A stretch of DNA of 62,827 nt from Acidimicrobiaceae bacterium. Its GTDB lineage: Bacteria; Actinomycetota; Acidimicrobiia; Acidimicrobiales; RAAP-2. The position numbers and the translations under genes were made by a program. The stretch is from positions 1 to 62,827 of the forward strand of contig PNAT01000133.1 of NCBI GenBank assembly GCA_003169675.1. The letters run 5' to 3'. The first letter of the stretch is position 1. The number at the start of each line of letters is the position of its first letter. This document shows positions 10,391-40,827 of the stretch, piece by piece. Under the pieces are notes generated by a model. That model had not been told where the DNA came from. It did no database searches and saw only the letters and a list, made by a program, of their open reading frames with translations.

Positions 10391-10729
10391 TCAATCAGCC
10401 CCGTCGCGCCATTCGATATGGGCCAGGATGGCCCCGTCGGCTTCCACCCAGCCCTTCCCGGCGGCATACGCGCACATCCCGGCCAGCGCTTCGTCCCAAT
10501 CAGGCGTGGCCACCGCGCCGGCCAGGGCCCGCAAGGCGATGGGGTCGACGGCCACATGCCCCCCGTCGGGCTGCAGGCGCCCCAGTCCCGATGCGTGCAC
10601 CACCTGGGCCAACGACCCTTCCGCCCCTCCACCCTCGACGGCCACGGAGAAGCGGGTGAAATCGTCGGGCTGGGTGAGGAGCACCCGCTCCTCACCCGGA
10701 TCGATCACGATGATCACGTCCGGCGACAC
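10391..10729 (-). CDS. Conserved hypothetical protein
   Basis: In-frame GTG start (VSPDVIIVIDPGEERVLL...) gives a compact 112-aa protein divergent from the phosphotransferase gene. Confidence 0.5.
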   Translation of the reverse strand: MSPDVIIVIDPGEERVLLTQPDDFTRFSVAVEGGGAEGSLAQVVHASGLGRLQPDGGHVAVDPIALRALAGAVATPDWDEALAGMCAYAAGKGWVEADGAILAHIEWRDGAD

Positions 10730-10759
10730 TACCGGCTCCCCTCGATACACTCCGGCCCC

Positions 10760-11836
10760 ATGCCCGACATCGACCAGCGCGACCCTGACGAGGTCGGCGC
10801 CATCCTCTCTCGATGGCTGGCCACCAAGTCCGGCGACGGTACGGCGCCGGAGGTGTACGACGTGCAGGCCCCGGCCTCGAACGGGTTCTCCAACGAGACC
10901 ATCCTGTGCCGCACCCGCACCACCGTTGACGGGGTGATCGACGAGAAGCGCCTGGTGGTGCGCGTGGCGCCCACCAAGCACCTGCTGTTCCTGGGCGCCG
11001 AGTTCTCCACCCAGTACCGCGTCATGCGCACGCTGGCCGACGGTGCCGCCGGTGTCCCGCTCCCCACGCTCGGCTGGTATGAGGAAGATCCCCAGTATCT
11101 CGGGGTGCCCTTCTTCACCATGGATCATGTCGACGGGCAGGTGCCGGCAGACAATCTGCCCTACACCATGGAGGGGTGGGTGCTCGAGGCCACCCCCGAG
11201 CAGCAGCGCACCATGTGGTGGAGCGGGATCGACGCGCTGGCCTCGGTGCACCAGTCCGATTGGCGCGCCCTCGGACTGGGCTGGCTCACCCAACCGAGCC
11301 GAGGCAGACCGGGCATCGGGTACCAGATGTCGTACTACCGCGAGTTCCTCGACTGGGCGGCCCAGGGCACCCGGGTGCCCATCCTGGAATCAACTTGGAG
11401 TTGGCTGGTCGACCACCAGCCCACCGAGGAGGGCGACGTGGTCCTCAACTGGGGCGACAGCCGGATCGGCAACATCATCTGGGACGAGTTCCGTTGTGCC
11501 GCCGTGATCGACTGGGAAATGGCCACCCTGGGCCAGCCCGAGATGGACCTGGGGTGGTGGCTTTATTTCAACCGTCAATTCGCCGATGGTCTGGGCGTAC
11601 CCCGGCCCGCCGGCTTCGCGTCACATGAAGAGACCATTGAGCGCTACAGCGAGATCATGGGGCGACCCATGAAGAACATCTTCTTCTACGAGGTCTTCTC
11701 GGGGTTCCGCTTCGCCGTGATCATGCTGCGCCTGTCCGAGCTCCTCATGGGGAGCGACATCCTGCCCGGCGACTCCGACATGGGCACCAACAACCTGGCC
11801 ACCCAGCTCCTGGCCACCATGTTGGAGCTGCCCTGA
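10760..11836 (+). CDS. Phosphotransferase (aminoglycoside/choline kinase-like) family protein
   Basis: VVLNWGDSRIGNIIWDEFRCAAVIDWEMATLGQPEMDLGWW matches the APH HGDxxxxN..D catalytic/metal block. Confidence 0.9.
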   Translation: MPDIDQRDPDEVGAILSRWLATKSGDGTAPEVYDVQAPASNGFSNETILCRTRTTVDGVIDEKRLVVRVAPTKHLLFLGAEFSTQYRVMRTLADGAAGVPLPTLGWYEEDPQYLGVPFFTMDHVDGQVPADNLPYTMEGWVLEATPEQQRTMWWSGIDALASVHQSDWRALGLGWLTQPSRGRPGIGYQMSYYREFLDWAAQGTRVPILESTWSWLVDHQPTEEGDVVLNWGDSRIGNIIWDEFRCAAVIDWEMATLGQPEMDLGWWLYFNRQFADGLGVPRPAGFASHEETIERYSEIMGRPMKNIFFYEVFSGFRFAVIMLRLSELLMGSDILPGDSDMGTNNLATQLLATMLELP

Positions 11837-11839
11837 GGC

Positions 11840-12223
11840 CTAGTCCTCGATGGGGTCCCCGGGTGTGACCGCCACCCCGGCGGCCCGCAATCGATCGCCC
11901 AACCATTTGGCCCCCCCGGGGCCGGGCATGGCCTCCTGCCATCCCTTGAGGATCAGGTGGAGATTGTCCACGGTATCGATGTGGGCCACCACGTGGACCG
12001 TCATCTGCCTTTCGAAGCCCGGACCGGTCGACACATAGAGGCCGCCGAACGGGTCCTCGGTCACATGGGGCGCCGGCTCCCGCATCACGTAGAGCTCTCC
12101 GGTGTCCTCCACGTAGTTCAGTTCGTGGCGCACTCCACTGGTGTCCTGCCAATCCGAGCCCAGCTCGATCTCCGCCGAAGGCCGGCGCCGCGGGTCACCC
12201 TCATAGAACTGGTCGATATTCAT
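11840..12223 (-). CDS. Conserved hypothetical protein
   Basis: 127-aa ORF from internal ATG (MNIDQFYEGDPRRRPSAEIELG). Codon-count start used; my base-by-base reading placed it one nt away, so the exact start base is uncertain. Confidence 0.65.
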   Translation of the reverse strand: MNIDQFYEGDPRRRPSAEIELGSDWQDTSGVRHELNYVEDTGELYVMREPAPHVTEDPFGGLYVSTGPGFERQMTVHVVAHIDTVDNLHLILKGWQEAMPGPGGAKWLGDRLRAAGVAVTPGDPIED

Positions 12224-12265: not shown

Positions 12266-12332
12266 ACCATGGCCCCGGGCCGCCACTGCGGTGGGAGGGA
12301 TCGGGGGAGATGGGGCTGCGACCGTCCTTGCC

Positions 12333-13103
12333 ATGCCTACCGACCTTCGACAACGGATAGTTCCTATTGACCTGCTGAATGCCGAGTGGCGATCGCTCGG
12401 CCGTTCGCGCCCGGCCGTGCGGGCCCTGGAACGGGTGGCCGTGCGCGACCATGACCTATCCACCCTGGTCCTCGGGACGCCCGGGGCTCCCCCAAAATGC
12501 CCGACGCCATGTGATCTGGTCGACCACATGCGTCAGGCCACCGGTCGCCTCCAGCGTGAGGAGGCGGCCGCACTGGTTCGGGTGCTCCTGCGGGAGGCCC
12601 CGATTGATCCGTTCATCACCCGGATCCTGGTGCAGGCAATTCTTCCCGGATTGGTCTCGGTCGCGGGCAAGCTGCGGTGGGGTCAGGGCGGCGAATGGCA
12701 GGACGGGAGCGAATTTTTCGGAGAGTTGTTGTCTACCGCCTGGGTGGTTCTAGCGGAGTGGTCCGGTCAGGACTGGCCCTACGCGGTGCTGGACCTTCTC
12801 TCGGCCATTCGGTGCCGTGTGCGGCGTCAACTGTTTCGGGCCAAGGAGCGGCAGCGGGTCAGATCCTCGCTGACGGCCGAGGCTATGGCGGACCGGACCG
12901 TGCGCCCCGAGACGGACCTGGAGGAGCTCTCGCGACTTCTCATCGAACTGCGTCGGGAGGGTATGCGCTCCGATGAGGTCCAGGTTCTCTACGCCCACCA
13001 CGTCCTCGGCTATTCGATCGCCGAGTTGGCCGCAGTGACCGGCCGCGACCGACGGGCCCTCTACGCCCGTCGCGACCGCGGCCAGCGTCGGCTCTGCGCC
13101 TGA
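12333..13103 (+). CDS. Sigma-70-like/HTH DNA-binding protein
   Basis: C-terminal region-4-like HTH VLYAHHVLGYSIAELAAVTGRDRRALYARRDRGQRRL; large N-terminal helical part; start ATG inside ORF 12291..13103. Confidence 0.65.
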   Translation: MPTDLRQRIVPIDLLNAEWRSLGRSRPAVRALERVAVRDHDLSTLVLGTPGAPPKCPTPCDLVDHMRQATGRLQREEAAALVRVLLREAPIDPFITRILVQAILPGLVSVAGKLRWGQGGEWQDGSEFFGELLSTAWVVLAEWSGQDWPYAVLDLLSAIRCRVRRQLFRAKERQRVRSSLTAEAMADRTVRPETDLEELSRLLIELRREGMRSDEVQVLYAHHVLGYSIAELAAVTGRDRRALYARRDRGQRRLCA

Positions 13104-13147
13104 AATTCCCAGTTTTGTGGGGGATGATTCGTGCGTATCGTGGTGCC

Positions 13148-13810
13148 GTGGTTGAAGCGGGAAGTAAGGCCCCGGACCGTCCGCGGGCGCAGCCAACCCG
13201 CGGGCGACCGAATTGGTGGGTGATCCTGGCCGTGTCGCTCGCCCTCATGGCCTTGATGGCGGCCACATCAGCCGGGACACGGGGTTCAGAGACCTTCGGC
13301 CGCGGGGTCCGGACCCTCAATGCCGCCCGAGTGACCCCATCCCGGCATGCTCATGGCGCCGTCACCCCGCCATCCACCGTCCCGACCACCACCACCGTCC
13401 CGACGTCGCACGTGGGGGCGGGGTCTTCTGGCGCGATGACCACCACGGTGCCTCCAAGCGCCACCACGACCACCGTGACCGCGGCGGCCACCACGGGCAC
13501 GACCGCCGGCACGGGCTACGCCACGCCATCGGACCGGACGACGAACAGCGGGTACCTGCAACCGCCGGGGGACCCAACAAATAGTTACGGGTTCACGGGT
13601 AACGGACCGGTTCAGGTGTCAGTCACGTGGGGCGACACCACCTACCTCTCACTCACCGTGACCTGCCCCAACGTCAACCAGAGCAACGGAGGGACTTCGG
13701 CCATGACCGTCTCGCTCCCTGACGCCGAGGGCGCGTGCCGGGCCACCGTCAGTGAGCCCGCCTCGGAGAACACGATGGTCTCGTACTCCATCACGATCGG
13801 CCCCCCGTAA
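13148..13810 (+). CDS. Membrane-anchored protein with Thr/Pro-rich stalk
   Basis: N-terminal TM (WWVILAVSLALMALMAATSAG) followed by PPSTVPTTTTVPTS/TTTTVTAAATTGTT low-complexity stalk; overlaps the next gene by 1 nt. Confidence 0.65.
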   Translation: MVEAGSKAPDRPRAQPTRGRPNWWVILAVSLALMALMAATSAGTRGSETFGRGVRTLNAARVTPSRHAHGAVTPPSTVPTTTTVPTSHVGAGSSGAMTTTVPPSATTTTVTAAATTGTTAGTGYATPSDRTTNSGYLQPPGDPTNSYGFTGNGPVQVSVTWGDTTYLSLTVTCPNVNQSNGGTSAMTVSLPDAEGACRATVSEPASENTMVSYSITIGPP

Positions 13811-16293
13811 TGGCGCCCAGGTCCAAAGACGCAGGCCTTTGGAAGAAGGTTGCCGACGTGCTGGGTTCTGCCCTCACGACGCTCCTGGTCTTCGCCGCCA
13901 TCCCCGCTGTCCTGATCATGATTGTCGGTGATCCACTCTCCAGTGGTCTGGGCCACCATTGGAGCCACCTGGCCCGCGCTGCGCTGAGCGCGTTGACCGT
14001 GGTCGCTTGGGTGTCCTGGGTCGCGTGTTGCTCACAGCTGTTGCGGGCTGTCGTTCACCATGTCCGCCGTGGCGACGCCGGCGTGCCCCTCGGCGCGCCC
14101 TTGACGGAAAGGATCGCCGCCCAGATAGCCGTGGGCATCCTGGCTTTCACCAGCTTGGGGACGCCCCTTGTGCTGGCCTCGGGGACCGGGGCCGGTGCGG
14201 CCGTGGCCGTTCGTAGCCACGTCGGCGCGCCGCCACACCATGAGGGCCTGCCCGGTTCAGTCTTCGAAGCCGACAGCCCCTCAGCCTCTGACCATGTCGT
14301 CAGCCCCGGTGACTCGTTGTGGTCCATTGCCGACGAGCGAATGGGTGACGGCGCTGACTGGACGTCCATCGCCGCTTTGAACCTCGGCCGGACGATGCCC
14401 GACGGCCGCCGGATTGTCGACCCGGATCTGATGGTGCAGGGCTGGTCTCTCCACCTGCCCGCCGACTCGGAAATGACCGCCATCCGGCCCGATGTCAACG
14501 TACCGGTTGGCCCCCGTGGGAAACACACCTCTACCCTGCCCGAATTGTTGGTCCTCGGCATCGGTTCCATCGGTGGCGCGGCGCTGGCTCGACGTTCACG
14601 ACGGATCCGCCTTCTGCGCCAGTTCAACTCCGGACCGCAGGGCGACCACTTCGACCAATCCGACCTCGCCCTGGACACGGGCATTCTCCTGAGCCGCTTT
14701 GCGGGTGTCCCTGCCCTCACCGCTTTCGAGGCGGCAAACTGCCAGCTAGGACGGGCACTGGGCGCCGGAAACCACACGTCCGCCGACCCCGGGGTGCGGT
14801 CCATCTGCGTCGGTCCATCTGGCGTCACCTTCTGGCTCACCACGCCCGGACAGGAGCCGCCATCGGGCATCACTCTCTCGGCGGACGGCCGTTCGTGGCA
14901 TGTGCATCATGAAACGCTGGTGGAGAAGGACCTCTTCTGTCCCCAGTACCCCATCGTCCTGCCGGTCGGTGATGACGAGGAAGGCACGTGGTTGGTGCCC
15001 CTCCGAACCGGCACCGTGCTTCCCCTGCTGGGCGAAGCGGCCGAGGCGATGTGGCGGGCCGCTCGATCGGTGCAAGAGGCCTGGTCCTGGGCCGACATGG
15101 TGGTGGTGACGGACGACCCGGCCGTGGCAGGTATTCGGCTCCGGGAGCTGGGCAAGGGCGGGGCTGACGGGAAGAGCCGAATCCCGATCCTCTTTTTCGG
15201 TGATCCGACATCGTTGGCCCCTGGAGTGGCGGACCAGATCTCGGTGGTTACCACGTGTCCCGTCGTCGCCAGTGACGTCACCGTGCTGGTGGACCGGCAC
15301 GGCGCCTCCATCCATCCGCTCGGTCGGACCGTGCGCCCTCACCTCTTGACATCGGGCAGTGCCCGGTTGATTGACGAACTGATGGCCGCACCGGTTGTCC
15401 GTTCGGATACCTCGGATCTCCAGAGATCCCCTCACGAGTCCAACGTCTCAAGTCCTGGTGCGAGCGTCGATTCCCAGGCCATCGCATTCGGACGCGAGCC
15501 GGGCCTGGTCGAGGTGAAGCTCCTCACCATGTCACCGCGGATCGACGGGCTCCGGGAAGAGCTCGCTCCCAACCGCGCCCGCCGCGCCGTCGAATTGGTG
15601 GCCTATCTGGCCCTCCACCGTCCCGACGCCGTGACCAGCGATCGCCTTCGCACGCGGGTGTTGGGGTCATCGGATGCCGACGCGGCATCAAAGACCCTCT
15701 TCAACACGGCGACGGCGGCCAGGCGGGCCTTGGGCCTCGACGCCAGTGGCGAACCCCTTTTCCCGGCTGGAAGCCGCAACGGTCACTATCGGGTGTCCGA
15801 TGAAGTCACCGTCGATGTGCAGCGGGCAGCCGCCCTGGTGTCTTTCGGGAATGCGTGCGAGGACCCGAATCTGGCCATGGCACATCTGCGGGCCGCCCTC
15901 GACCTCGTTGAGGGAGAGCCACTGGCCAATGCACTCTCGGGTTACTCATGGTGGGAGGTTGAAGGGCACGGGGGGCGCATCGCGGCCATTTTTGTCAAGG
16001 CGGCGTGCAACTTGGCCGCGCTGGCGATCGAGGGGGGTTACTTCGAATTGGCCCAGCGGGGTCTCAACCAGGCGCGCCTGGTCGATCCCTACAGTGAGGC
16101 GCTGTCTCGGGCCGCCATGGAGGTGGCAGCAGCCGAGGGTGACGCCGACCGGTTGCGACGGGAATGGCGCGAGTGCCAACGCCGGGTCGACGAAGTCGAC
16201 CCCGGGAGCTCCCCGTCGTCTCGAACGGAACGACTGTACGGCGAGCTTTCCCGGAGGGTACCGGTGGTCGCGGGCGGCGCCGGCGAAACCTAG
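13810..16293 (+). CDS. Multi-pass membrane protein with LysM domain and C-terminal BTAD/SARP-type regulatory domain
   Basis: Three N-terminal TMs, LysM (HVVSPGDSLWSIADERMGDGADWTSIAALNLGRTMPDG..), a fourth TM (LPELLVLGIGSIGGAALA-RRSRR), C-terminal BTAD (LREELAPNRARRAVELVAYLALHRPDAVTSDRLRTRVLG...LVEGEPLANALSGYSWWEVEG). Confidence 0.85.
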   Translation: MAPRSKDAGLWKKVADVLGSALTTLLVFAAIPAVLIMIVGDPLSSGLGHHWSHLARAALSALTVVAWVSWVACCSQLLRAVVHHVRRGDAGVPLGAPLTERIAAQIAVGILAFTSLGTPLVLASGTGAGAAVAVRSHVGAPPHHEGLPGSVFEADSPSASDHVVSPGDSLWSIADERMGDGADWTSIAALNLGRTMPDGRRIVDPDLMVQGWSLHLPADSEMTAIRPDVNVPVGPRGKHTSTLPELLVLGIGSIGGAALARRSRRIRLLRQFNSGPQGDHFDQSDLALDTGILLSRFAGVPALTAFEAANCQLGRALGAGNHTSADPGVRSICVGPSGVTFWLTTPGQEPPSGITLSADGRSWHVHHETLVEKDLFCPQYPIVLPVGDDEEGTWLVPLRTGTVLPLLGEAAEAMWRAARSVQEAWSWADMVVVTDDPAVAGIRLRELGKGGADGKSRIPILFFGDPTSLAPGVADQISVVTTCPVVASDVTVLVDRHGASIHPLGRTVRPHLLTSGSARLIDELMAAPVVRSDTSDLQRSPHESNVSSPGASVDSQAIAFGREPGLVEVKLLTMSPRIDGLREELAPNRARRAVELVAYLALHRPDAVTSDRLRTRVLGSSDADAASKTLFNTATAARRALGLDASGEPLFPAGSRNGHYRVSDEVTVDVQRAAALVSFGNACEDPNLAMAHLRAALDLVEGEPLANALSGYSWWEVEGHGGRIAAIFVKAACNLAALAIEGGYFELAQRGLNQARLVDPYSEALSRAAMEVAAAEGDADRLRREWRECQRRVDEVDPGSSPSSRTERLYGELSRRVPVVAGGAGET

Positions 16294-17639
16294 GACAGGG
16301 GCGACGCTCCCGGCATGAGCGACTCCTCCCCGATGGACGTGCCGTAGGTATGCAGCACGTCTTCCAGCCGGGCCACGCGACTTCCCTTGATGAGGAGCGC
16401 GTCGGCGGACGACAATTCCTGCGCCAATCCGACCGCAGCTTGCATCGTGGTGACCTGAGTCGGACCGTACAGTGACGTGTGATAGCCCACGATCTCGATG
16501 CCCAGTTCCTGGGCCAGGGAGGCCATCCGTTGATGCTGGCCGGCGGTTTCGGCCCCCAGTTCCGCCATGACCCCCAACAGAGCCACTTTCCGGTTTGCTT
16601 TGAGCGCGTCCAACGCGCGAAGCGCCGCCTCGGTGGAGGCCGGGTTGGCGTTGTAGCAGTCGACCACCAGGACCGGGCCCCGGCTCGGTCGCCGAACCGC
16701 CATCCGCAGCGGAGGTCCCGCGACCTCGGCCAAAGACGAGGTGACCGCATCAAGCGGCACCCCACACCACAACGCCGTGGCTGCTGCCGCCAGCGCATTG
16801 GAGACCTGTTGCTCGCCGTGGAGTTGCAACGCGACGTCGCCGTTGCCCCAGGGGGTGACGAGCGAGAATCGAGGCTGCAGCGTTTCATTGAGCACCACCT
16901 TCTCGGCGGTGACATCGGCGGGCGCGTGGACGGCGTAGCCCAGGACCGCGCTGGAGCTGAGCTCACTCATCCGGCGGACCCGCGGGTCATCGAAGTTCAA
17001 CACGGCGGCACCGGACTCCGGCAAGGCCGTGACCAGTTCGCTCTTGGCGCGAAAAACCCCTTCGAGGTCCCCGAAGAACTCTATGTGGGCCATGGCGACG
17101 CTCGTCACGACGCCCACATTGGGTAGGGCAATTTCGGCCAGCTCGCGGATGTGCCCGAAGCCGCGGGCACCCATCTCGAGGATCACCCATTGCGCATCAT
17201 CGGGGGCGTTTACCAGCGTCAGCGGCACACCGAGTTCATTATTGTACGAGCGCACGCTGGCTGAGGTCTTGAACGTCGACGCCAGGCACCTCCACACGAG
17301 CTCTTTGGTCGTCGTCTTGCCGACCGAACCGGTGATCCCGATCACCCCAGCATTGAGCCGTGCGCGCGCCAGCCTCCCGAGCGTGGAAAGTGCCGAGCTG
17401 GTGTCAGGAATGACGATGGCCGTTCCGCCCGATGGTGGCTGTGACGTCAGATAGGCGGCGGCACCGGCGCTCCGGGCATGCGCCAAGAAGTCGTGACCAT
17501 CGCGCTCCGCAATGATCGGGATGAAGAGCTGGCCGCGCTCAGTCGTCCGCGAATCGATACTGGCCCCGTCAATGGTGACGTCCGGCCCAACCAGCGTCCC
17601 GCCTAGTTGGACAGCGAGTTCAGCTGTCGAGAATCGCAC
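16290..17639 (-). CDS. murF: UDP-N-acetylmuramoyl-tripeptide--D-alanyl-D-alanine ligase
   Basis: GVIGITGSVGKTTTKEL P-loop, NNELGVPLTL, VDCYNANPASTEAALRAL typical of MurF. Confidence 0.92.
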   Translation of the reverse strand: MRFSTAELAVQLGGTLVGPDVTIDGASIDSRTTERGQLFIPIIAERDGHDFLAHARSAGAAAYLTSQPPSGGTAIVIPDTSSALSTLGRLARARLNAGVIGITGSVGKTTTKELVWRCLASTFKTSASVRSYNNELGVPLTLVNAPDDAQWVILEMGARGFGHIRELAEIALPNVGVVTSVAMAHIEFFGDLEGVFRAKSELVTALPESGAAVLNFDDPRVRRMSELSSSAVLGYAVHAPADVTAEKVVLNETLQPRFSLVTPWGNGDVALQLHGEQQVSNALAAAATALWCGVPLDAVTSSLAEVAGPPLRMAVRRPSRGPVLVVDCYNANPASTEAALRALDALKANRKVALLGVMAELGAETAGQHQRMASLAQELGIEIVGYHTSLYGPTQVTTMQAAVGLAQELSSADALLIKGSRVARLEDVLHTYGTSIGEESLMPGASPLS

Positions 17640-17676
17640 GCATAGGCCTTTGCGACAGATTGTATAGCCTCAGGCG

Positions 17677-18750
17677 ATGACACCCCCTCGCGATCTGGTC
17701 GTGCTCTATGGAGGTCCCTCCGCCGAGCATGAGGTGTCGTGCATTTCGGCTTCACGTGTCGCTGTGGCCGCCCGGGACGGCGGTCACCGTGTGACGGCCA
17801 TTGGGCTCACCCACGACAAGCGATGGGTGAACGCGAATCGAACGCTCGAATCGCTGGCTGACGGGGACGCGCTGACATCACCCGATGTCCTCATCCGTCG
17901 GCACCCCGAGACGGAACTTCCCTATTTGCAGACCGAGCTTCGGCAAGATCCGGTCGTGTTCCCCCTTCTCCATGGTCCATTTGGAGAAGACGGGGTCATC
18001 CAAGGCCACCTCGAAACCATCGGGCTGCCCTACGTCGGTGCCGGTGTCCTCTCCTCCGCCATCTGCATGGACAAGGCACTGGCCAAGTCGGTGTTGCACG
18101 ATCACAGGCTGCCGGTGGCGGCGTGGCGGCTGGTTCGGCGAGCCGACATCACCGGGGACTCGTTGGAGGAAGCCGGGCGGACGTTGGGCTACCCGATCTT
18201 CGTCAAGCCGGCCAATCTCGGCTCCTCTATCGGCGTGACCAAGGTGCATGACTCGGCGACGATGCGGGATGCCATGGAGACGGCGTTCGAATTCGATGAC
18301 TACGTGATCCTGGAGGAATTCGTCGACGGACGCGAGCTCGAGCTGGCGTTGTTGGGCAATGAGGTCGTTCGCGTATCGAGAGCGGGCGAGATAGTGGCCA
18401 GCCGGGAGTTCTACGACTACCAGGATAAGTACGAGTTGGGCCTGGCCACCACGCTCGTGCCCTCTGTCCTGACGGAAAATCAACTGGCGAACGCTCAGGA
18501 CCTGGCGCTGAGGGCCTACCGAGCGCTGCGGGTCGAGGGACTGGCCCGGATCGACCTCTTCTTGAGGGGCGACGGCTCCCTGGTGGTCAACGAAGTCAAC
18601 ACCATGCCGGGCTTCACGCCGATATCGATGTATCCGATGCTGTGGGAATTGGACGGATTGCCGCTCGGAGCGCTCATTGACGACCTGGTCGACCTGGCGT
18701 TAGCTCGTCACCTGCGACGGCAGGGCCTTCGCACAACCCGCGTGGGGTGA
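17677..18750 (+). CDS. ddl: D-alanine--D-alanine ligase
   Basis: LYGGPSAEHEVSCISA, FPLLHGPFGEDGVIQG, FVKPANLGSSIGVTKV, VNEVNTMPGFTPISMYP. Confidence 0.97.
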   Translation: MTPPRDLVVLYGGPSAEHEVSCISASRVAVAARDGGHRVTAIGLTHDKRWVNANRTLESLADGDALTSPDVLIRRHPETELPYLQTELRQDPVVFPLLHGPFGEDGVIQGHLETIGLPYVGAGVLSSAICMDKALAKSVLHDHRLPVAAWRLVRRADITGDSLEEAGRTLGYPIFVKPANLGSSIGVTKVHDSATMRDAMETAFEFDDYVILEEFVDGRELELALLGNEVVRVSRAGEIVASREFYDYQDKYELGLATTLVPSVLTENQLANAQDLALRAYRALRVEGLARIDLFLRGDGSLVVNEVNTMPGFTPISMYPMLWELDGLPLGALIDDLVDLALARHLRRQGLRTTRVG

Positions 18751-39787: not shown

Positions 39788-40827
39788 CGATCCCCGGATC
39801 CGGACTCCCAGAGCGACGCCATGAGGTGTCGCGGCCTTCGGGCACTCCCCTGCTCGAGGTACGGGACCTGGTGAAGCACTTTCCCCTCCGGGGCGGGAAG
39901 TTCGTGCGACGACGTGTCGGGGATGTCCATGCCGTCTGTGGGGTCTCTCTCGATATCCACCCGGGCGAGACGCTCGGCCTGGTCGGTGAGTCTGGATGTG
40001 GGAAGTCCACCATGGGACGGACCATCCTGCAGTTGCTCCGTCCCACCTCAGGATCGGTCACTTTTGAGGGAAGGGACCTCACGAAGGTGGACGGCAAGGA
40101 GCTGAGGAGCATCCGACGAGAGATCCAAGTGGTCTTTCAGGATCCCTATGCGTCGCTCGATCCGCGCATTCCGGTGGGGCAGTCGATCGCCGAACCACTG
40201 CACATTCATGGCCTGTGGGACGCCTCGGGAAGTCGGAAGGTAGCCGACGTGCTGCACCTGGTCGGCTTGGAACCGTCGCACTTCAACCGCTATCCAAACG
40301 AATTCTCCGGAGGGCAGCGCCAACGAATAGGCATCGCGCGGGCGCTCATATTGGAACCGAAGCTCCTCGTCCTCGATGAGCCTGTCTCCGCCCTCGATGT
40401 GTCCATTCAGGCCGGAGTGGTGAACCTCCTCGAAGAGATCCAGATACTCAAGAAGGTGTCGTACCTGTTCATCGCCCACGATCTCTCCGTCGTCCGGCAC
40501 ATTTCAGACCGGGTGGCCGTCATGTACCTGGGCAAGATCGTCGAGATCGGAACTCGTGACGACATCTACAGTCGGCCTTCACATCCCTACACCCAGGCGC
40601 TCCTCTCGGCAGTTCCCATCCCCGATCCGCGCCGCGAGCGGGCCCGTCAGCACATTGTGCTCGAAGGTGACGTTCCCAGCCCGCACGACCCCCCCAGTGG
40701 ATGCCGGTTCCGGACCCGCTGCTGGAAGGCCCAGAACATCTGCGCGCAGGAGGAGCCGCAGCTCATGGACCGCGGCCAGGAACATCCTGTGGCCTGCCAT
40801 TTTGCCGAGCCGGCCCAGGTGGTGTGA
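39784..40827 (+). CDS. ABC transporter ATP-binding protein (DppF/OppF-like)
   Basis: [61 protein letters not shown]. Confidence 0.95.

Follow-up and report, generated by a model that had tools for sequence, protein, structure and literature searches.

SARPs are known as activators of antibiotic gene clusters, and CadC and ToxR are one-component membrane regulators with an N-terminal winged helix, one membrane helix and no BTAD domain. AfsR is described as forming dimers that bind two direct repeats centred on -29.5 and overlapping the -35 region, and that dock sigma region 4, the -10 element of the promoter being the weak CACTGT (PMC10936776). The sites of SARPs in general are direct repeats; the usual distance is 11 bp, and others have also been reported (PMC10972967). 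LysM and BTAD were found together in PAGK_2369, a protein of a C. acnes Tad locus that was named TadB (PMC3666418). This layout is common at the ends of actinobacterial Tad operons and is annotated there, so the architecture as such is not new. A search of the open-access literature found no functional study of these LysM/BTAD relatives, and no description of a Tad-free operon with a sigma-like partner and a SARP-type promoter. An operon of this kind was analyzed here in a soil actinobacterium with a genome of 3.56 Mb in 211 contigs, one of which (C67) is the window, that is, the whole stretch of 62,827 nucleotides under analysis. The nearest named relatives of this genome are Acidimicrobiaceae and other actinobacterial metagenome-assembled genomes.

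The protein of interest, a LysM/SARP membrane regulator designated LysB and called the regulator below, is encoded by the third gene of a conserved run, sig, ext and regulator. The 827-aa ORF proposed in the preliminary description (13810..16293, + strand, as for all parts of the protein given below) was borne out by homologs, alignment and a structural model. Homologs with E ≤ 1e-30 were present in 28 of the 37 family genomes, so the ORF is not due to chance. Among the 26 regulator loci, L028 (fragmented), L033 and L040 were left out of alignment A1, which holds 24 sequences; alignment A4 combines 39 of the 40 ORF references with the window protein, omitting L099 (Acidobacteria), and alignment A5 contains 39 of 40 rows, the missing row having only 63 aa in the region. 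The full-length AlphaFold2 model had a mean pLDDT of 81.3 and a pTM of 0.54.

The domain layout was also as previously described, with three N-terminal hydrophobic helices, a LysM domain, a fourth helix followed by RRSRRIRLLR, and a large inside part with a BTAD domain at its end. Hydropathy gave four hydrophobic stretches, the basic sequence coming directly after the fourth. Helices 1-3 (13867..14172) lie at about aa 20-39, 57-75 and 98-121 by hydropathy and at 8-39, 53-87 and 98-121 in the model, and helix 4 (14533..14589) was placed at about aa 242-260 by hydropathy and charge. The LysM domain (14290..14460, about aa 161-217; Pfam, homologs and PDB profile matches) belongs to the extended type known from Kbp and TsaP, and its profile matched PDB LysM chains including 7pvc (E 0.0017) and 3jc8 (E 0.011). 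The BTAD domain passed its HMM threshold (26.7 bits, cut-off 22.1), while the LysM assignment depended on the scan, scoring 17.7 bits on the single protein, below the cut-off of 20.9, and 22.6 bits in the genome scan, above it. A LysM match at E ≤ 0.1 was obtained in 19 of 24 homologs; it was not detected in the other orthologs, and LysM is therefore not essential in all of them.

An outside LysM and an inside BTAD, as first proposed from the positive-inside rule, agreed with hydropathy, with the charge pattern of the family and with the model. In the 40-row family alignment, the mean number of K+R was 3.3 at the N-terminus, 4.9 in loop 2 and 7.4 after helix 4, all predicted to be inside, versus 0.9 in loop 1. 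The net charge per residue was 0.108, 0.116 and 0.119 in the same three segments, versus 0.028 in loop 1 and 0.003 in the LysM part.

The C-terminal part was compared with known SARP structures. The preliminary description had seen no clear winged helix before the BTAD and had regarded partner binding as possible instead. The first point did not hold, since a winged helix of the OmpR/SARP type (15496..15810, aa 563-667), supported by Trans_reg_C in homologs, a fold match and conservation, was found in front of the BTAD domain (15811..16248, aa 668-813; PF03704, fold match). Pfam Trans_reg_C was detected in 9 of 24 homologs, directly before the BTAD. The model of aa 563-819 was matched in VIA to AfsR (8k60) with a Z of 15.8 and an rmsd of 3.7 over 237 aligned residues (Foldseek E 4.9e-7), and to EmbR (2fez) with a Z of 15.8 and an rmsd of 3.4 over 242 aligned residues. 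The matches to AfsR (8k60, 8hvr) and EmbR together spanned Z values of 15.4-15.8 and rmsd values of 3.4-3.8, and were followed by TPR proteins with a Z of at most 10.3; the absence of other folds from the fold-search lists is uninformative. Conservation was also highest here: among 39 relatives, blocks 581-640 in the winged helix showed a mean identity to the window protein of 0.67-0.75, versus 0.39-0.52 in the LysM and 0.08-0.45 in the middle part. On the model, aa 563-819 is thus a whole SARP domain, winged helix plus BTAD, and the regulator is predicted to be able to act on DNA itself, not solely via a partner. The protein differs from AfsR and EmbR in that their SARP part is N-terminal, whereas in the regulator it follows four membrane helices and a LysM, at the C-terminus. 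It shares with CadC and ToxR an outside sensor and an inside winged helix in a single chain, but not their N-terminal placement of the winged helix, their single membrane helix or their lack of a BTAD.

Between the membrane and the SARP part, a further domain (14656..15405, aa 283-532) was modeled on its own with a pLDDT of 88.7. The best 21 VIA rows for this model were FtsK, TcpA, EccC, EssC and related ATPases, with Z values of 7.7-6.4 that are middling and reached by chance arrangements too; other RecA-like folds ranked below them, and Foldseek returned no match under 0.001. The domain resembles the motor domains of FtsK, EccC and TcpA in fold, but is shorter and lacks their Walker A motif, which occurred in none of the 40 rows; it is therefore probably no ATPase. 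The models suggest a degenerate, probably dead FtsK/EccC-like P-loop-type domain. AfsR also carries an NTPase-type domain in one chain with its SARP part, although the one in the regulator is FtsK-like and without Walker A.

The first gene of the operon, sig (12333..13103, + strand; alignment A2), most likely starts at ATG 12333, encodes a sigma-factor-like protein and is probably leaderless. Sigma70_r4_2 was matched by 11 of 23 sig members at E ≤ 0.1 (best E 1.3e-4), ECF sigma models by 2 of 23, and the window protein itself reached 14.1 bits against a cut-off of 25.7, a weak match. The PDB profile search gave a sigma-D match with an E of only 0.25. These weak profile matches hint that sig may be a true sigma factor. 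The second gene, ext (13124..13810, + strand; alignment A3), encodes a predicted exported protein with a short basic N-terminus, one membrane helix, a Ser/Thr/Pro linker and a small two-Cys domain. C184 and C208 were invariant in the 15 rows of its alignment, and a Pfam search gave no match. On the other side, a small conserved divergent ORF (11840..12223, - strand) shares the intergenic region, and its start is kept in most of 23 upstream regions. An APH-type phosphotransferase gene (window 10418-11836, + strand) was found beyond it, and lies upstream in 11 of the 26 loci.

The gene sig was found within 9 kb in 22 of the 26 regulator loci and ext in 14; the four loci without sig were L021 and L025, both at contig ends, L038 and L040. 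Among the 37 family genomes, 27 contained both regulator and sig, 8 neither, one only the regulator (at a contig edge) and one only sig (Fisher p 2e-6, uncorrected for kinship). Additionally, lone multi-copy paralogs of sig were observed (L157, L158, L159, L160, L161 and L162), those of L160 and L162 near ORFs that by eye resemble serine recombinases, which suggests mobile-element cargo.

Upstream of the operon, a direct repeat TGGGAG-N6-GGGGAG with a 12-bp period (12292..12309, + strand; EM motif and PWM) was found, and is proposed as the operator of the regulator. All 23 loci with sig had a KGGGAG direct repeat of this period upstream of the ATG, at a distance of 21, 22 and 23 nt in 3, 11 and 9 loci, respectively. 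As the three distances correspond to three reading frames, the repeat does not code for protein. The EM motif reached a log-likelihood of 193.3 in the 23 upstream regions versus 63.5 (sd 2.6, maximum 68.5) in 20 dinucleotide shuffles, a null that overstates the significance because the upstream sequences are related. When 140 nt were searched for motifs, nothing but the coding start of the divergent ORF was recovered, and a version of the repeat scored with the wrong spacing was rejected as near the null (mean 10.5 versus 8.9), with no match for that spacing in the window. The repeat is followed by a -10-like element, GACCGT in the window (12320..12325, + strand; SANNNT in the family), at a fixed distance: of the 23 loci, 18 have an xANNNT sequence separated from the repeat by exactly 10 nt and 4 have one separated by 9 nt, the bases in between being barely conserved. 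The element and the ATG are 5-7 nt apart, suggesting that the transcript is leaderless.

If ATG 12333 is taken as +1, the two 12-bp units of the repeat centre on -29.5, as in the target promoter of AfsR, and the direct repeats overlapping the -35 and the weak CANNNT -10 would be shared as well; in L036 the -10-like element is CACTGT itself. The period of 12 instead of 11 bp sets the promoter apart from that of AfsR. By analogy, this geometry leads to the proposal of positive autoregulation by a membrane-held SARP.

Another reading is that this is an ECF-type promoter recognized by sig, with the repeat as its -35 region, and that the LysM/SARP protein is not the binder. GGAAC is an ECF -35 element, and the second repeat takes the similar form GGGGAA(C) in L033, L035 and L039; furthermore, the sigma-like gene lies within the operon. 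The distribution of the motif speaks otherwise. It was missing from all six loci where an intact sig paralog stands alone (PWM score of at most 8.7 anywhere), including L161, which shares its genome and contig with a G004 operon. By contrast, it was present (PWM 16.7) at L040 (G004:C168), where a 6.3-kb contig carries a regulator gene but no sig, and where the regulator keeps the KTL[FY]N helix. The motif was absent at L038, where the regulator has a different helix, and L057-L060 combine altered helices with weak or altered repeats, these four loci also looking like close kin. Both repeats are conserved, and four tandem copies lie at one other gene of G019, which does not favor a -35 element either. 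Presence of the motif therefore tracks the regulator and not sig, making the regulator the likely binder as judged from these sequences, and we regard the ECF-type reading as unlikely. The second regulator gene, at L040, lies downstream of an ORF that by eye resembles a VirB4-type conjugation ATPase, and the family may ride conjugative elements.

The strict promoter pattern GGGAGN5GKGGGARN9-10SANNNT was used to look for further targets. In 27 genomes it gave 15 matches, comprising 12 sig operons, the second regulator gene in G004:C168 and 2 elsewhere, and the reversed pattern gave 5. The operon was matched in only 12 of the 27 genomes, as those of the other genomes deviate from the strict form. 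No regulon beyond the operon emerged from this search, most other strict-pattern matches lying inside long open frames without a fitting start. Within the window, the repeat at 12292..12309 was the one PWM match above 13. There were exceptions among the matches in other genomes. In G019, the four tandem 12-bp copies (L115, G019:C134, about 40043-40084) are located upstream of a gene encoding an exported surface protein of very large size with repeats of the SpaA (prealbumin-like) type (PF17802, E 1.8e-52, 6 stretches), and this adhesin may belong to the regulon there. The other exception is a similar repeat in G021 and G034 (L146 1679-1696 and L147 1141-1158), located 22 nt upstream of the GTG of what by eye resembles a gene for the replication initiator of an integrative element.

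The genes next to the regulator, murF (16290-17639, - strand; TIGR01143, 334 bits) and ddl (17677-18750, + strand; TIGR01205, 312 bits), suggest a link to the cell wall and raise the question of a dedicated regulator of this pair that would tune the D-Ala-D-Ala supply to wall damage. Neighbors of the murF/ddl type were found in 23 of the 26 regulator loci, and in the host genome these are the only copies over the cut-off. The synteny first looked strong, but it was weakened by a family-type murF-ddl pair in 8 of 9 examined genomes without the regulator at that place; seven of these pairs lie beside uvrD in the usual order and the eighth at a contig end. Inherited order thus explains the adjacency at least in part. 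Of the eight genomes, G027 carries a regulator gene at another locus (L038), and the ninth genome (G033) carries window-type murF and ddl in another context. Moreover, the PWM scan of the window gave no repeat motif before murF or ddl, and the G019 operon has no murF-ddl pair beside it. Control of murF and ddl by the regulator therefore appears very unlikely, and the two genes are candidate targets without support. Independently of this, the murF of the host lies outside the dcw cluster and is paired with ddl; in that cluster, an ORF matching murE is followed directly by one that is mraY-like by eye, with no murF between. In G000, G002 and G003, the murF-ddl pair (window 16290-18750; L114 5981-8593) differs in type and orientation from the pair that the other family members have at this position, as though it had been exchanged in situ.

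Relatives of the regulator are widespread and include proteins on plasmids of Streptomyces, Embleya, Microbacterium and others. Around Embleya WP_331738758, the order is SAF, ATPase, two T2SSF, TadE, TadG and then a 'BTAD domain-containing putative transcriptional regulator', and in Microbacterium a LysM protein occupies the matching place at the end of the Tad operon. The homologs at L041 and L045 lie beside T2SSE or T2SSF genes, and a paralog in the host itself (L053, on C164) accompanies TadE, T2SSF and T2SSE, the family profile aligning at both its ends. A TIR-domain gene (L053 5966-6919, - strand; PF13676) adjoins this Tad locus and its LysM protein. Profile A4 aligned to the Tad-operon LysM/BTAD proteins along most of their length, and those of Embleya and C. 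acnes share with the regulator a membrane/LysM N-terminus, a middle domain and a C-terminal winged helix/BTAD.

These relatives, together with the name TadB given to the C. acnes protein, would fit a role in the structure or assembly of a Tad-type pilus or surface machine, with the winged helix and BTAD serving for protein contacts. The window copy differs in that it sits with sig and ext behind a conserved repeat promoter, without Tad genes: the 20 window ORFs scanned contained no Tad families, and T2SSF matches occurred only on C24, C69 and C164, none on C67. The winged helix, in addition, is the best conserved part and co-varies with the DNA motif, so a role as a pilus factor is considered distinctly unlikely for this protein.

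Taken together, the regulator is probably a SARP-type transcription activator that is tethered to the membrane and controls its own operon. The four helices would anchor it with the LysM toward the wall, and the probably dead FtsK/EccC-like domain would link the membrane to the winged helix and BTAD. Most likely, two adjacent copies would occupy the TGGGAG direct repeat (-41 to -24) and, by sigma adaptation as in AfsR, bring RNA polymerase to the operon's weak -10 element. Transcription of the operon would then yield more regulator, more of its exported partner and more sig, a likely relay to further genes. An outside signal, perhaps the state of the wall or surface read by LysM and ext, would switch the operon on. 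Against this model stand the need for a membrane protein to reach its promoter, the period of 12 bp instead of the usual 11, and the L038 regulator without the motif. The fuller version, in which a SARP activator at the membrane joins a wall-facing LysM to DNA binding by sigma adaptation through a dead FtsK-like relay, controls almost only its own operon and leaves sig to carry the signal on, is put forward more tentatively, as a possibility.

The regulator is a real and unusual member of a known domain family with a candidate target site, and the promoter repeat, as a concrete candidate DNA target, makes its function directly testable. A wall-facing, membrane-held SARP would be a one-step route from the cell surface to a promoter. 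If this is true, the large LysM/BTAD family that closes actinobacterial Tad operons would consist of wall- or pilus-coupled transcription switches.
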